Part shown: one piece after another, positions 8,140-14,045 of the stretch
Layout of the letters: each line of letters opens with the position of its first letter
How positions within the stretch are numbered: the first letter of the stretch is position 1
Assembly (NCBI RefSeq): GCF_014084125.1
Contig: NZ_CP048405.1
Span: 7,254,001 to 7,318,000 of the forward strand
Source: Streptacidiphilus sp. PB12-B1b
GTDB taxonomy: Bacteria; Actinomycetota; Actinomycetes; Streptomycetales; Streptomycetaceae
Length of the DNA stretch: 64,000 bases
Reading direction: 5' to 3'
The notes under the pieces: model-generated
The model's input: the letters and a program-made list of their open reading frames with translations, nothing else
Told to the model about the DNA's origin: nothing
Databases searched by the model: none
Program-made: the position numbers and the translations under genes

Positions 8140-10005
8140 ATGACACCCCTGCGCACATCGACGTCCGCAGCGCCGCCCCGCACCCGCCCCCGTCGCCGGT
8201 TCGGGCCGGGCGGGCTGACCCTCGCCGGAGCCCTGGTCGCCGGGACGCTGCTGCCGCTGACGCTCGGCGGCACCGCGCACGCGAGCAGCCCGAACGGCGG
8301 CGACGTGATCGCCAACCTCTTCGAGTGGAACTGGCCCTCGGTGGCCGCCGAGTGCACCAGCGTGCTCGGCCCCAAGGGCTACGGCGCGGTCCAGGTCGCC
8401 CCGCCGGAGGACTCCATCCGCATCCCGGGCAGCAGCCACCCCTGGTACGACGTCTACCAGCCGGTGGGCTACGACCTCAACAGCCGGATGGGCGACGAGG
8501 CGCAGTTCCAGTCCATGGTGGCGACCTGCCACGCGGCCGGGGTCAAGGTCTATGTGGACGCGGTGATCAACCACATGTCCGGCAACGACCAGACCAGCAC
8601 CGACTCGTACGGCGGCGACGGCTTCAACGTGTCGTCCAAGACGTACTCCGAAGTGCCGTACGGCCCGGCCGACTTCCACACCTCCCCGGCCAACTGCCCC
8701 AACGCCGACATGTCCATCCAGGACTGGAACAGCCAGACCCAGGTGCAGGAGTGCGACCTGGAGGACCTGGCCGACCTCGACACCGAGTCGGACGACGTCC
8801 GGGCGAAGATCGCGGCCTACCTCAACAAGCTGATCGGCTACGGCGTCGACGGCTTCCGGGTGGATTCGGCCAAGCACATCAACCAGGCCGACATGGCCAA
8901 TATCGAGTCCCGGCTGAACAACACCGCGTGGGGCCAACGCCCTTACGTGCTCCAGGAGGTGGCGCTGGGCGGCACCGGGAACCTGGCGCCCTCGGCGTTC
9001 GAGGGCAACGGCAGCGTCATCGGCTTCGACTACGCGGACGCGCTGAAGGCGCAGTTCCAGGGCAGCATCGCCAACCTCAAGACGTTCGGCCAGAGTTGGG
9101 GGTTGGAGCCGAGCGACAAGGACGGCGCCATGGTCGCCAACCACGACACCGAGCGCGACGGCTCCACGCTGAACTACAAGAACGGCTCGCAGTACACCCT
9201 GGCCACCGAGTTCATGCTGGCCTGGAACTACGGCGTGCAGCCCACGGTCTACTCCGGCTTCGCCTTCGCCGACGCGAACGACTCGCCGCCAGCCGACGCC
9301 AACGGCTTCGTGACCGCCACCGACTGCTCGTCCGGCGCCTGGGTCTGCACCGACCGGGTGCCGGGCATCGCCAACATGGTGGGCTGGCACAACGCGGCCC
9401 AGGGCCAGCCGGTGGCGAACTGGTGGGACAACGGCGGCAACGCCATCGCCTTCAGCCGGGGCAGCGGCGCCTGGATCGCCATCAACAACGGCTCCTCAGC
9501 GGTCACCGAGACCTTCACCACCGGCCTGGCGGCGGGCAGTTACTGCGACGTCATCCACGGCGACACCACCGCCGCGGGCGGCTGCACCGGCCCCGCGGTC
9601 AGCGTGAACAGCTCCGGCCAGGCCACGGTGACGGTCAACGCCGGCGACTCGGTCGCCGTCTACACCAAGGCCGCCTGCAGCACCGGCTGCACCCCCACCG
9701 CCCCGGCGGCCGGCACCGTCTCGGAGACCTTCAACGAGACCAGGACCACGGTGTGGGGCCAGAACGTGTACGTCGTCGGCTCGATCCCGGCGCTGGGCGA
9801 CTGGGATCCGGCGTCCGCCGTCCCGCTCTCCTCGGCCGGGTACCCGGTGTGGAGCGGCACCGTGCAACTGCCCGCCGACACGTCCTTCCAGTACAAGTAC
9901 ATCATCAAGGACGGCTCGGGGAACGTCACCTGGGAGGACGGCGGCAACCGCAGCGCCAGTACCGGCGCCTCCGGTTCGGCCACCCTGAACGACACCTGGC
10001 AGTAG
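8140..10005 (+). CDS. Secreted alpha-amylase (GH13) with C-terminal CBM20
   Basis: 621 residues. A twin-Arg-rich leader (PRTRPRRRFGPGG) with hydrophobic core ends at TAHA-SS (about residue 47). The GH13 barrel shows VDAVINHM (region I), GFRVDSAKH with nucleophile Asp about 237 (region II), VLQEVALGG with acid/base Glu about 272 (region III) and VANHDTE with Asp about 333 (region IV). A Ser/Thr-rich link leads to a CBM20 starch-binding domain (about 525-620: NVYVVGSIPALGDWDP, YKYIIKDGSGNVTWE). It hydrolyses internal alpha-1,4 bonds of starch outside the cell. Its length and architecture match classic Streptomyces amylases. Regulation by maltose through a MalR-type repressor is suggested by the upstream repeats. 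Confidence 0.95.
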   Translation: MTPLRTSTSAAPPRTRPRRRFGPGGLTLAGALVAGTLLPLTLGGTAHASSPNGGDVIANLFEWNWPSVAAECTSVLGPKGYGAVQVAPPEDSIRIPGSSHPWYDVYQPVGYDLNSRMGDEAQFQSMVATCHAAGVKVYVDAVINHMSGNDQTSTDSYGGDGFNVSSKTYSEVPYGPADFHTSPANCPNADMSIQDWNSQTQVQECDLEDLADLDTESDDVRAKIAAYLNKLIGYGVDGFRVDSAKHINQADMANIESRLNNTAWGQRPYVLQEVALGGTGNLAPSAFEGNGSVIGFDYADALKAQFQGSIANLKTFGQSWGLEPSDKDGAMVANHDTERDGSTLNYKNGSQYTLATEFMLAWNYGVQPTVYSGFAFADANDSPPADANGFVTATDCSSGAWVCTDRVPGIANMVGWHNAAQGQPVANWWDNGGNAIAFSRGSGAWIAINNGSSAVTETFTTGLAAGSYCDVIHGDTTAAGGCTGPAVSVNSSGQATVTVNAGDSVAVYTKAACSTGCTPTAPAAGTVSETFNETRTTVWGQNVYVVGSIPALGDWDPASAVPLSSAGYPVWSGTVQLPADTSFQYKYIIKDGSGNVTWEDGGNRSASTGASGSATLNDTWQ

Positions 10006-10074: not shown

Positions 10075-10222
10075 CGTCCGTCCGGCTGCCGTGCGTCGCT
10101 GGGGCACGGCAGCGGCTCGCGGCCTGATAGCAGGTCCATGACAGGCGTACAGGTATACAATCCCCGTGGCCCGTTTCACGCAGCGTTGCGCACTGTTCTT
10201 CAATTGGCGCAGCCGGCCAAGG

Positions 10223-10345
10223 GGTTGGATATCCCAACCACTCGGTGAACCATTCCCCACGGAGTGGTTCACTCGGTAGCCTAGGCGGGCGCACCGGACC
10301 AATTCAAGTGCGTACAGGAGCCCTTGGCCCTCACTCAAGTGAGGG
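10223..10345 (+). promoter_or_regulatory. Cluster of inverted repeats before the XRE cassette
   Basis: Three dyads lie within 125 bp upstream of the XRE gene: GGTTGG-N5-CCAACC (10223-10239), GTGAACCA-N12-TGGTTCAC (10245-10272) and a CTCACT/AGTGAG dyad (CCTCACTCAAGTGAGG, about 10329-10344). They are plausible operators for the first gene of the cassette or for another regulator. The last could also be a small hairpin in the leader. Function is inferred from position and symmetry only. Confidence 0.45.
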
Positions 10346-10366
10346 GACGATTTCGAGAGGTGGCGC

Positions 10367-10864
10367 ATGGCTGCTGCCCGACAGCCGCGGACGCTGGCTG
10401 AGAAGCTCAACGGACTGATCGCCGCCGTCACTCCGAAGGACCGCCAGTCGCCCTACTCCGACAACGAGATGTCGGCGCTGATCAGCGAACGCGGCCTGCT
10501 GCGCATCTCCGCAACCAACATCGCCAACCTGCGCAGCGGCCGCAACGCCAACCCCACCATGGGCACCATCGACGCGTTGGCGCAGTTCTTCCACGTCCCG
10601 CCCGGCTACTTCCACCAGGACGCGCTGCCGCCGGAGGTGGAGCGCGGCATCGCCGAGGAGATCGAGGCCGCCACCCTGCTCAAGGACCTCGGCGTGCGCT
10701 CCATCGCGCTGCGCTCGGCCGGTCTGGCCGGGGAGGACCTGGTCCCGGTCCAGGCCATCCTGGACGTGCTGCGCCGCGCCAACAACCTTCCGCCGATCGC
10801 CGATCCGGTCACCGCCCAGACCGCCGAAGGCAGCAGGGAACCAGGGGCTCCGGCGTCCCCGTGA
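10367..10864 (+). CDS. XRE-family helix-turn-helix regulator, first gene of the ImmA/IrrE-P450 cassette
   Basis: 165 residues. The N-terminal 75 residues form an HTH with the segment YSDNEMSALISERG...ISATNIANLRSGRNANPTM and the helix TIDALAQFFHVPPGYF, typical of actinobacterial XRE proteins. A helical region follows (EVERGIAEEIEAATLL) and then a Pro-rich tail. The neighbour is an ImmA/IrrE-type metallopeptidase. In the ImmR/ImmA and DdrO/IrrE pairs the peptidase cleaves the XRE repressor to induce genes, and the same logic is plausible here. Dyad operators lie directly upstream. The next coding start is 39 bases downstream. Confidence 0.8.
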   Translation: MAAARQPRTLAEKLNGLIAAVTPKDRQSPYSDNEMSALISERGLLRISATNIANLRSGRNANPTMGTIDALAQFFHVPPGYFHQDALPPEVERGIAEEIEAATLLKDLGVRSIALRSAGLAGEDLVPVQAILDVLRRANNLPPIADPVTAQTAEGSREPGAPASP

Positions 10865-10902
10865 TGGTGACAGGATGGGTCATCGTCCCGAAGGAGACAG
10901 AC

Positions 10903-11433
10903 ATGTCGCGGTCGCTCCGTCGGCAGTGCGCGAAACTCGTCAAGGATCTGGACCTGCCCTCGCCATTCGACCTCGAACAGTTCTGCCGCAACCTCGGCGA
11001 ACTGCGCGGACGCCCGCTCACCCTGATGGAGATCGACCTGCCGTCCGCGCTGCCCTGCGGCATGGTGGCCGCCCTGGACGACCGCGACATCATCTTCATC
11101 ACCGCCGGGCTGACCGGGCCGCACCGCGACGTGGTCGGGCTGCACGAGATCGGCCACCTGATCGCCGGGCACCTCACCGACCCGCTGGCCCACCCCGACG
11201 CCGGCCGCTTCGTCTACACCCACCTCGATCCGCGCCTGGTGCGCAGCATCAACGGCCGCAGCAACTACTCCACACCCGAGGAACAGCAGGCGGAGCTGAT
11301 CGCCACCATGCTGTTCGCCCGGATCAACCGCTTCACGGCCGAGTCGCAGTGGTCGATCGCCGGCGGCGAGGGCGGCGTCGTCGACCGGATCAGCCGCTCG
11401 CTCGGCGACGGCACCACGCCAGGAGCCCCGTGA
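10903..11433 (+). CDS. ImmA/IrrE-family zinc metallopeptidase (COG2856)
   Basis: 176 residues from ATG 10903, which has a strong AAGGAGA Shine-Dalgarno; an in-frame GTG at 10861 overlapping the previous stop codon is weaker. The zinc motif HEIGHLIAGH lies at about residues 77-86, preceded by DIIFITAGLTGPHRDVVGL. The later EEQQAELIATML supplies the third-ligand Glu region expected for this family. Members act as cytosolic proteases on partner XRE repressors or as toxins of toxin-antitoxin-like pairs. Its 3' end overlaps the next start by GTGA, so it is translationally coupled to the membrane protein. Confidence 0.85.
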   Translation: MSRSLRRQCAKLVKDLDLPSPFDLEQFCRNLGELRGRPLTLMEIDLPSALPCGMVAALDDRDIIFITAGLTGPHRDVVGLHEIGHLIAGHLTDPLAHPDAGRFVYTHLDPRLVRSINGRSNYSTPEEQQAELIATMLFARINRFTAESQWSIAGGEGGVVDRISRSLGDGTTPGAP

Positions 11434-12692
11434 ACAGCGTCCTCTACCCCATCGCCGCCGTCACCGCCTGGCTCGCCTGCCTCTACAAGGCCCGCGACCT
11501 GCGCCGCCGGCGCAACCTGCCGCTGGTCGCGGTGGTCGCCGCGTTCGTCTGCCTCGGCGGCATCTTCTTCATCGCCTCCCCGGACGTGTGGGTGGCCCTC
11601 GACCGCGCCGCCCACTACCCGAACCTGGCCATCCTGGTCAGCCAGGGCCTGGTCATGCCGTACACCTTCTGCGTGCTCGCCGCCTGCGTGCTGTGGCGCT
11701 ACCCGCCGCACCGGGCACGGCAGTTGATCCGGCGCTCGGGGCTGGCGCTGACGGCCGTGGTGGTGCTGATGGCGGTGCTCTTCCTGGCCGCCCCGATCAG
11801 CGCCGAGGACCCGACCACCTACGTGCCGGACAACGCCCGCCAGCCGTACATCAACGCGTACCTGATGGTCTACATCGCCACCTACGCGGTGCTGCAGATC
11901 GTGGTGGTGCGGATCACCCTGCAACTCGCCCGGATCGGCGGCCGGCCCTGGCTGCGCCGCGGCCTGCGCATCAACGCCTTCGGCAACCTGCTGGCGCTGC
12001 CCTACTGCGCGGTGCGGATCGCCGACGTGGCGCAGCGCTGGGTCGCCCTCGACGCCGGACGCTTCGAGGACGTCGCCCGGCTCGCGGTCGGCATCGGCGT
12101 GCTGATGCCGCCGATCGGCTGGACCATCCCCCGCTGGGGCCCGCGGCTCTCCGCCGCCGCCGACTGGGCCCGCGCCCACCGCCCGTACTGGCGGCTGTAC
12201 CCGCTGTGGGACGCGCTGACCACGGCCGTCCCGTACGTCGTGCTGGACACCGGCGACCGGGCCTCGCTGCTGGGCGGGCGCCGTCGGCCGGGCCGGGTGG
12301 CACTGCGGGCCGGCTACCGGCTCACCCGCCGGTACGTCGAGATCCGCGACGCCCGGCTGGAGCTGCGCCCCTTCCTCGACCCGGGCGTCGCGGCCGCCGC
12401 CGAGCAGGCGGGCGGCCGGGCCGGGCTCGCCCCGGACCAGCTCGCCGCCGTGGTCGAGGCGGCCCGACTCGCCGCCGCCATGCGGGCCGTGGCGCTCGGC
12501 ATCACCCCCGAGCGGACCGCGCTCGCCCCGCAGCGCGACGCCCGCACCGGCGCCGACCCGGGCGGCGCCGACGCCGCCGCCGAGATCGCCTGGCTGGTCC
12601 GGGTCGCCGCCGCGCTCGTCGACTCCCCCGTGGTCGCCTCCGTGCTGGCGGACACCGATCCGCACGGCCTGCAGCCGACCAGCCGCACCTGA
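11430..12692 (+). CDS. Multi-TM membrane protein of the MAB_1171c type
   Basis: 420 residues from GTG 11430 (AGGAG upstream; GTGA overlap with the peptidase gene). The first 240 residues hold about seven hydrophobic helices (for example AAVTAWLACLYKA, LVAVVAAFVCLGGIFFIA, LTAVVVLMAVLFLAAP, LMVYIATYAVLQIVVV, LAVGIGVLMPPIGWTIP). A soluble tail of about 170 residues follows (YWRLYPLWDALTTAVPYVVL, LTRRYVEIRDARLEL). This layout matches a family of putative transporters or sensors repeatedly found in actinobacteria beside XRE and ImmA/IrrE genes. No enzyme motif is visible. I infer a membrane sensor for the cassette. It ends 24 bases before the P450 gene. Confidence 0.7.
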   Translation: MNSVLYPIAAVTAWLACLYKARDLRRRRNLPLVAVVAAFVCLGGIFFIASPDVWVALDRAAHYPNLAILVSQGLVMPYTFCVLAACVLWRYPPHRARQLIRRSGLALTAVVVLMAVLFLAAPISAEDPTTYVPDNARQPYINAYLMVYIATYAVLQIVVVRITLQLARIGGRPWLRRGLRINAFGNLLALPYCAVRIADVAQRWVALDAGRFEDVARLAVGIGVLMPPIGWTIPRWGPRLSAAADWARAHRPYWRLYPLWDALTTAVPYVVLDTGDRASLLGGRRRPGRVALRAGYRLTRRYVEIRDARLELRPFLDPGVAAAAEQAGGRAGLAPDQLAAVVEAARLAAAMRAVALGITPERTALAPQRDARTGADPGGADAAAEIAWLVRVAAALVDSPVVASVLADTDPHGLQPTSRT

Positions 12693-12716
12693 CCTGCCAT
12701 CACCACCGGAGAAGCC

Positions 12717-14045
12717 ATGTCGCCCCACGCCCCGACGCCGTCCGACACCGCCGCCCTGCCCAGCCTGGACACGGCGTTCGGCCCGGACCCGTACCCCCGG
12801 TACGCGCAGCTGCGCGAGGCCGCGCCGGTGCACCAGGTCCTCGGCCCGGACGGCGTGCCGATCTGGCTGGTCACCCGGTACGCCGATGCCCGCGCCGCGC
12901 TGGCCGACCCCCGGCTGTCGCTGGACCGCCGCAACGCCGCCCCCGGCAAGTACGCCGGCCTGTCGCTGCCCCCGGTGCTGGACGCCAACCTGCTGAACAT
13001 GGACGGCGCGGACCACTCCCGGCTGCGTCGCCTGGTCGCCCCGGCGTTCAGCGCCGCCCGGATGGACGCCCTGCGCGACCGGGTGCGCGAGGTGGCCGCC
13101 GGGCTGCTGGCGGACGCCGCCCGGCAGAGCGGCCCGGTGGACCTGGTCGAGGCGTACGCCGCGCCGCTCTCGCTCACCCTGCTCTGCGACATCCTCGGCG
13201 TCGACCGGGCCGAATCCCGGCGCTTCCACGGCTGGACCGCGCTGCTGCTGGCCCCGGCCACCGCGACCCGCGCCCAGCTCCAGGAGGCGCTGGAGGGCGT
13301 GGTCGCCTCGCTGGCCCGGCAGATCGCCGCCAAACGCGCCGAGCCCGGCGCGGACCTGCTCTCCGCCCTGGTCACCGCGCACGACGGCGACGACCGGCTG
13401 AGCGCGGACGAGCTGCTCAGCCTGGCCTTCCTGCTGCTGCTCGCGGGCTACGAGAACACCATCAGCGCGATCACCGCGACCGTCCTGGCCGTGGTCACCG
13501 AGCCGGGCCTGCGGCAGCGGGTGGCCGCCGACCCGGCCGTCGTCCCGGCCCTGGTGGAGGAGGTCATCCGGCACGACGGCCCGGTGGAGCTGGCGATCCG
13601 GCGCTTCCCGGTGGAGGACCTGGAGATCGGCGGGGTGCTGATCCCGGCCGGGGAGCCGGTGCTGATCGCCGTCGGCTCCGCGCACCGCGACCCGGACGCC
13701 TTCGACGACCCCGACGCCCTCTCCCCGGAACGGCCCCGGACCGGCAGCGGCCACCTGGGCTTCGGCCACGGACCGCACTACTGCCTGGGCGCCGCCCTCG
13801 CCCGGCTGGAGACCACCACGGCGTTGAGCGTGCTGCTGGAGCAGCACCCGGAGGCCGTCCTGGCGCTGCCCCGCGAGGAGCTCCGCCGACGCCCCTCGAT
13901 CCGCACCCGCGGCCTGGCCGCACTGCCGGTCCTGCTCGACCCGGCACAGGGCGAACCGGCACAGGACGAAGCGGCACAGGGCGAAGCGGCGCAGGACGAA
14001 CCGGCGGGACCGGCGGCGGACGGCGCCGGGGTCGGCAGGGCCTGA
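12717..14045 (+). CDS. Cytochrome P450
   Basis: 442 residues, standard for a soluble bacterial P450. The I helix reads LLLLAGYENTIS, with Asn where most P450s have the conserved Thr of AGx(D/E)T(T/S). The K-helix ExxR is EEVIR, and the heme loop is GFGHGPHYCLGAALARLE with the Cys ligand. The C-terminus ends in a duplicated low-complexity tail (AQGEPAQDEAAQGEAAQDEP). It is the last gene of the cassette and shares one transcription direction and tight spacing with the three regulatory and membrane genes. There is no ferredoxin gene next to it. The substrate is unknown. Confidence 0.9.
   Translation: MSPHAPTPSDTAALPSLDTAFGPDPYPRYAQLREAAPVHQVLGPDGVPIWLVTRYADARAALADPRLSLDRRNAAPGKYAGLSLPPVLDANLLNMDGADHSRLRRLVAPAFSAARMDALRDRVREVAAGLLADAARQSGPVDLVEAYAAPLSLTLLCDILGVDRAESRRFHGWTALLLAPATATRAQLQEALEGVVASLARQIAAKRAEPGADLLSALVTAHDGDDRLSADELLSLAFLLLLAGYENTISAITATVLAVVTEPGLRQRVAADPAVVPALVEEVIRHDGPVELAIRRFPVEDLEIGGVLIPAGEPVLIAVGSAHRDPDAFDDPDALSPERPRTGSGHLGFGHGPHYCLGAALARLETTTALSVLLEQHPEAVLALPREELRRRPSIRTRGLAALPVLLDPAQGEPAQDEAAQGEAAQDEPAGPAADGAGVGRA

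Follow-up and report, generated by a model that had tools for sequence, protein, structure and literature searches.

A 64,000-nt window of DNA, positions 7254001-7318000 of the 7.67-Mb chromosome of the actinomycete Streptacidiphilus sp. PB12-B1b, carries a cassette of four genes for an EspR-like regulator, an M78-like metallopeptidase, a seven-transmembrane (7TM) protein with a C-terminal DUF6545 domain, and a cytochrome P450 (Table 1). This gene set recurs far beyond chance and is a real unit. We propose that it represents a proteolytic switch that is self-contained, gated by a receptor and modular in its output, a reading whose whole chain we regard as evenly balanced between right and wrong. 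An original prediction for the locus had suggested asking whether homologues of these genes stay together. This was examined in 41 genomes of the window's family, in which the membrane family, a peptidase profile and a regulator profile were searched and coordinates were compared, and the genes were indeed mostly found together. For each of the 79 near-full-length membrane homologues, a peptidase of the subfamily was present no more than 2.5 kb away. Conversely, 78 of the 80 peptidases adjoined a membrane gene, and for 60 of the 73 regulators such a gene lay at a distance of up to 3 kb. Neighbours of the membrane gene had served to build the profiles, which favours the detection of such neighbours, yet free-standing relatives would also be caught, and few were found.

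The gene order was followed in 157 nonredundant loci, a larger set whose counts are not unbiased, as resemblance to the query played a part in the choice; the contig scan used alignment A2, the broad alignment A1 being too divergent. The peptidase gene was located directly upstream of the membrane gene in 111 of the 157 loci, 69 of which also had the regulator upstream, while the order membrane protein, regulator, peptidase was seen in 30.

A same-strand gene followed within 120 nt downstream in 71 of the 111 peptidase-membrane loci, and its product varied widely. We counted a tetratricopeptide repeat (TPR)-like protein in 17 loci (a label assigned by eye, with no Pfam match), a PAP2-like membrane protein in 11, a P450 in 8 (11 with gaps of up to 350 nt), an aldo/keto reductase in 8, an amidohydrolase in 5, a flavin adenine dinucleotide (FAD) oxidoreductase in 4, and an amidase, a methyltransferase or an MpaB-type oxygenase in 3 each; the singletons include a short-chain dehydrogenase/reductase (SDR), a phosphoenolpyruvate (PEP) mutase and a polysaccharide deacetylase. 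This count of the last slot had likewise been suggested in the original prediction, which viewed the P450 as the output of the system. An enzyme does occupy the last slot, but the slot is exchangeable, with about a dozen alternative outputs of which the P450 is one. The term 'signal-gated oxidation' therefore fits the window member and is limited to it.

When the output class was mapped onto the membrane-protein tree, a quick tree with long branches, 13 changes were needed for 12 states in 72 rows, compared with 43-53 in 100 shuffles. Judged by this difference, enzyme and receptor are inherited as pairs with occasional swaps. Two loci encode receptor-enzyme fusions, one of 7TM-DUF6545 with a PAP2-like part (L050:5814-7610) and one of 7TM-DUF6545 with a NUDIX hydrolase (L023:5017-6720). 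That enzyme and receptor are fused in two relatives suggests a possible action of the enzyme on the signal itself, beyond a role as transcriptional output alone. Conceivably, then, the enzyme could make or destroy a putative ligand, with the P450 inside the sensing loop and the peptidase/regulator pair only setting the gene dosage. The match between receptor clade and enzyme class, the two fusions and the prevalence of small-molecule-modifying enzymes among the outputs are in agreement with such a ligand-processing module. However, it overlaps with the proteolytic switch proposed here, and the TPR-like output group lacks a recognised enzyme domain; as a separate explanation we consider it unlikely.

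The membrane protein scored 229 bits with NF042915 (DUF6545/MAB_1171c; cut-off 100) and 114 bits with PF20182 (cut-off 24.4). Its AlphaFold2 (AF2) model, with a predicted local distance difference test (pLDDT) of 90 and a predicted template modelling score (pTM) of 0.81, consists of a seven-helix bundle and a DUF6545 domain that is helical and cytosolic. Lys/Arg residues number 9 in the inside loops, which have no acidic residues, and 3 in the outside loops, which have 6 acidic residues; since positive charge is concentrated on the inside loops, the predicted topology is N-out/C-in. Conservation, measured as the majority residue, was 0.67 in the DUF6545 core versus 0.49 in the 7TM part. The best 50 fold matches to the model were G-protein-coupled receptors (GPCRs) or designed GPCR-like proteins, the top GPCR match reaching Z 17.5 over 238 residues at 4.3 Å, a score to be read in the light of the high values that helical bundles obtain anyway and of a lack of sequence similarity. 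The idea that the multi-spanning protein acts as a sensor has thus gained a receptor-like fold, by prediction, whereas the signal itself is something that we infer. Taken alone, the sensor role seems quite likely to us.

NCBI names this membrane family 'MAB_1171c putative transporter', and the only relevant paper found on it reports that a Mycobacterium abscessus MAB_1171c knockout, called a transport mutant, formed ∼50% less biofilm (PMC8707978). Both the name and the mutant would fit a module in which the membrane protein exports or imports the product of the enzyme, while regulator and peptidase exert ordinary local control. However, the transport claim in that study rests on annotation, the closest predicted folds are GPCRs, and the sequence profile matched no solved transporter, nor anything else of use, in the PDB, a result that excludes nothing. 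In addition, the cytosolic domain is conserved and the membrane part is more variable, and the universal pairing with a peptidase would be unusual for a transporter. We therefore regard a transport module as improbable.

The metallopeptidase that had been noted beside the regulator possesses an intact M78-type active site. Its HEIGH motif is encoded at 11143-11157, and H81, E82, H85, E127 and R119 were invariant in 152 of 152 homologues, so that the HExxH motif and the downstream Glu metal ligand of M78 (IrrE-ImmA) peptidases are both present. The closest folds to the AF2 model (pLDDT 82.6) were IrrE (Z 11.3), PprI (Z 11.0) and CapP (Z 10.1), and the match to IrrE (3dti) extended over 101 residues at 2.6 Å, as for an M78 fold. 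Some homologues are named ImmA/IrrE by the Prokaryotic Genome Annotation Pipeline (PGAP). The Pfam model PF06114 gave 13.8 bits, below its gathering score of 22, and the sequence profile found no useful match in the PDB. Because of this sub-threshold score we use the label 'M78-like' for what appears to be a divergent relative. The alignment with PprI/IrrE stops near residue 140 of the 176-aa protein, in which the model alignment revealed no PprI-type helix-turn-helix (HTH) or GAF sensor domains.

The regulator had been described as an XRE protein. It is indeed an HTH protein, encoded by a repressor-like gene beside that of the peptidase, but it proved to be EspR-like over its full length and not a generic XRE member. 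The homology to EspR (3r1f; phmmer E 4e-13, residues 8-141; profile E 6e-39) spans both the HTH and the C-terminal dimerisation domain. Weak profile matches were obtained to the HTH protein 7t5u (E 8e-5) and to SinR, and with the HTH Pfam models the single protein scored below cut-off. A candidate L-R cleavage site in the regulator, presumed by analogy with DdrO, was dropped: many family members carry ALR, and EspR and one Actinokineospora cassette carry AQR.

The dyads that had been noted before the cassette were found, and they exceed chance. Near-perfect dyads with 10-bp arms, overlapping registers counted, numbered 6 in 166 bp against a shuffle mean of 0.07, and this number was reached in 0 of 500 shuffles. 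Furthermore, many promoters of EspR-like genes bear a palindromic operator, GTCAACtnnnaGTTGAC. The 7-mer GTTGACA/TGTCAAC, which sits within the palindrome tGTCAACtgncaGTTGACa, occurred in 30 of 74 nonredundant upstream regions of EspR-like genes, where 1.5 were expected, and a matrix of the palindrome, trained on the same 74 regions that it scored, exceeded 12 bits in 35% of them versus 0.6% of shuffles. Where a peptidase gene has no regulator beside it, the frequency of the operator upstream was near background (2/34). Receptor-peptidase loci that have no upstream EspR-like gene (L011, L017, L093, L137 and similar ones) were also without the operator; their regulator, if any, must therefore lie elsewhere. 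The core CAACCAC of the window's candidate site also occurs in the strong sites of a paralogue in the same genome, L005 (13.1 bits), and of L085 from Kutzneria, which encodes the nearest relative of the window's membrane protein and has the site TGTCAACCACTGGTTGAGT (20.8 bits).

In the switch that we propose, the EspR-like protein would bind the dyads upstream of its own gene and hold the operon down; the family operator itself is established by statistics. The 7TM protein, with its N-terminus outside, would sense a small or lipophilic molecule via its helical bundle, for which fold and topology are predicted, and would relay its state to the cytosolic DUF6545 domain. Anatomy and tight linkage suggest that this domain would contact and activate the neighbouring M78-like peptidase. 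The activated peptidase would then cleave the EspR-like regulator, whereupon the operon would be released and the P450 made; cleavage of the EspR-like protein, taken alone, appears fairly likely. Because the enzyme class tracks the receptor clade and receptor fusions occasionally occur, it is probable that the enzyme modifies what the receptor senses, or a closely related molecule. More tentatively, the cassettes may represent a widespread, unnamed chemosensory system of actinomycetes, in which a GPCR-shaped receptor acts through an IrrE-type protease to destroy an EspR-type repressor and a matched enzyme, fused in some cases, makes or removes the ligand. If this is true, receptor and enzyme evolve as pairs, so that the enzyme class predicts the ligand.

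Several points weigh against the proposed switch. The Foldseek E-values of the GPCR matches were ∼0.007-0.06, and the GPCR likeness is a resemblance of the predicted fold and no evidence of homology. EspR is nucleoid-associated, and its effects can be positive or negative (PMC3315491); given these dual effects, the 'repressor' role of the regulator is assumed. The candidate operator in the window is weak when taken alone (8.0 bits, p ∼0.1). The regulator is not always local, since 42 of the 111 peptidase-receptor loci had no same-strand EspR-like gene upstream. Finally, repressor cleavage, the contact between DUF6545 and peptidase, the ligand and the substrate of the P450 are elements that we infer.

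The cassette occurs in many soil actinomycetes, and its distribution is patchy. No close orthologues were found at E 1e-30 among 13 other species of the genus and no match was found in phages; a phylum sample of 149 genomes gave a match in 4, all from the window's own family, and named contigs show the cassette in other actinomycete families too. In many Streptomycetaceae there are several copies whose enzymes differ, and the genome studied here has four cassette loci, the further three leading to a P450 of another subfamily (L005), a PAP2-like protein (L006) and an NlpC/P60 protein (L007). Cassettes were also found on Streptomyces and Amycolatopsis plasmids. Together with two plasmid homologues annotated 'toxin', this patchiness and plasmid location could point to a toxin-antitoxin-like or mobile stability module, with the peptidase/regulator pair as addictive core and the other genes as cargo. 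However, the receptor gene is present no less consistently than the peptidase gene, the cargo is not random but tracks the receptor clade, and no PADLOC defence family, CBASS (cyclic-oligonucleotide-based antiphage signalling system) included, matched any of the four genes at E <= 0.1, which makes this explanation very improbable.

The window P450 matched PF00067 with 105.6 bits and has the heme motif FGHGPHYCLG at 13761-13790 and EVIR as its ExxR motif. Its closest solved structure is 7wex (382 bits), and the nearest solved P450s are macrolide- and vitamin-D-type enzymes of actinomycetes. The I-helix reads AGYENT, as in L049, compared with AGYDNA in L046 and AGHETT in L005 and L029; the window enzyme seems to have Asn where most P450s have the catalytic Thr. 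Among the P450s of the compared genomes, a single clade with 100% support takes in 10 of the 12 from cassettes, namely those of Actinoplanes, Actinokineospora, Streptomyces plasmids, the window and other Streptomycetaceae. The remaining two, L005 of the same genome and L029, belong to another subfamily. One free-standing P450 of this clade, L195:5889-7094, comes from a species of the same genus and has no cassette beside it. Although this free member and the lack of an adjoining P450 in L085 would suit a unit of three regulatory genes with the P450 as an accidental neighbour, its same-strand position after a 24-nt gap and the single clade of ten cassette P450s with one free member make that scarcely credible.

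All four predicted open reading frames are present and co-directional on the plus strand. The claim that the genes overlap held for the peptidase and membrane genes, which share the GTGA at 11430-11433. GTGA recurs where the regulator gene meets the peptidase gene (10861); we nevertheless favour the peptidase start at 10903, on account of the Shine-Dalgarno sequence AAGGAG before this ATG and of the N-termini of homologues, which would leave a 38-nt gap after the regulator. A Shine-Dalgarno-like sequence precedes each of the four starts. The cassette is flanked by an amylase gene and a DUF1990 gene; the latter is convergent, and the P450 gene ends 4 nt short of it. The former encodes an alpha-amylase with CBM20, probably secreted, and is located directly upstream on the same strand (8140-10005), 361 bp away.

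Table 1. Features of the cassette and its control region, in window coordinates.
Feature	Position	Strand	Basis
Control region with several dyads	10201..10366	+	Inverted repeats exceed shuffles
Candidate operator TCCCAACCACTCGGTGAAC, the window's best match to GTCAACtnnnaGTTGAC	10232..10250	+	8.0 bits, shuffle p ∼0.1
Inverted repeat GTGAACCA...TGGTTCAC	10245..10272 (arms 10245-10252, 10265-10272)	+	Dyad search
Inverted repeat CCCTCACT-CA-AGTGAGGG	10328..10345	+	Dyad search
Overlapping dyad AACCACTCGGTG/CACGGAGTGGTT	before first gene		Dyad search
EspR-like HTH regulator, 165 aa	10367..10864	+	phmmer and profile matches to EspR
M78/ImmA-IrrE-like metallopeptidase, 176 aa	10903..11433 (possible earlier starts 10861, 10864)	+	HEIGH, invariant Glu127, model fold
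7TM protein with C-terminal DUF6545 domain (MAB_1171c family), 420 aa	11430..12692	+	NF042915, PF20182, AF2 model
7TM part	∼11430-12164	+	Subdivision of membrane gene
DUF6545 domain	∼12165-12617	+	Subdivision of membrane gene
Cytochrome P450, 442 aa, output slot	12717..14045	+	PF00067; cassette-associated P450 clade

Rearranged cassettes with the order TetR-like, receptor, EspR-like, peptidase were observed at L100:1724-8128, L104, L118 and ∼30 similar loci. They adjoin a gene for a ∼1,100-aa fusion of a ketosynthase and a class I/II aminotransferase in Streptomyces, Amycolatopsis and Catenulispora, and biosynthesis of a signal or metabolite may be under the same switch there. A divergent operon for DUF2637, WhiB-like, IstB-like ATPase, 'RIRTIKPEAF' and 108-aa proteins borders L005, L028, L029, L036, L051 and L092, and is perhaps a hotspot of mobility or integration.

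As the original prediction supposed, the gene set seems not to have been named as a system: a literature search on DUF6545, MAB_1171c, ImmA or EspR with Streptomyces, and 7TM-protease-P450 operons, which left most subscription journals and preprints outside its reach, returned no description of it. If our reading is correct, it gives a function to DUF6545/MAB_1171c and corrects a possibly misleading 'transporter' name. The multiple copies with different enzymes and a shared operator would then be readable candidate sensors of small molecules and a handle on silent metabolism.

By analogy, the mechanism would belong beside IrrE-DdrO, ImmA-ImmR and CapP-CapH. With PprI(IrrE)-DdrO of Deinococcus the cassette shares the pairing of an M78-type HExxH peptidase with an HTH regulator and the fold of the peptidase core (Z 11.3 and 11.0). 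PprI, however, senses single-stranded DNA (ssDNA) through HTH and GAF-like domains (PMC10904395). The window peptidase ends after the core, and the cassette adds a 7TM partner, an EspR-like regulator and a single enzyme output. The CapP-CapH pair of CBASS (Thauera, 7t5t) has the same peptidase fold (Z 10.1) and adjacency, and our regulator profile touches 7t5u (E 8e-5), which we take to be the HTH partner of CapP; here the cassette adds a membrane receptor and enzyme outputs. In ImmA-ImmR of ICEBs1, a small metallopeptidase likewise adjoins the HTH repressor that controls the unit, whereas the window cassette has a dedicated 7TM partner and, unlike ICEBs1, no integrative element genes were seen around it in the stretch examined. 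BlaR1/MecR1-BlaI offers a functional parallel, combining membrane sensor, metalloprotease, repressor and enzyme output, but there sensor and protease are one protein, while in the window they are separate genes with unrelated folds. EspR of M. tuberculosis shares the HTH and C-terminal dimerisation domain with our regulator; its motif TTTGC[TC][GA] (PMC3315491) differs from the cassette family motif GTCAACt...aGTTGAC. If true, the proposed switch would bring a membrane receptor into the M78-peptidase/HTH-repressor switches, in which the reported trigger, for PprI and CapP, is ssDNA.

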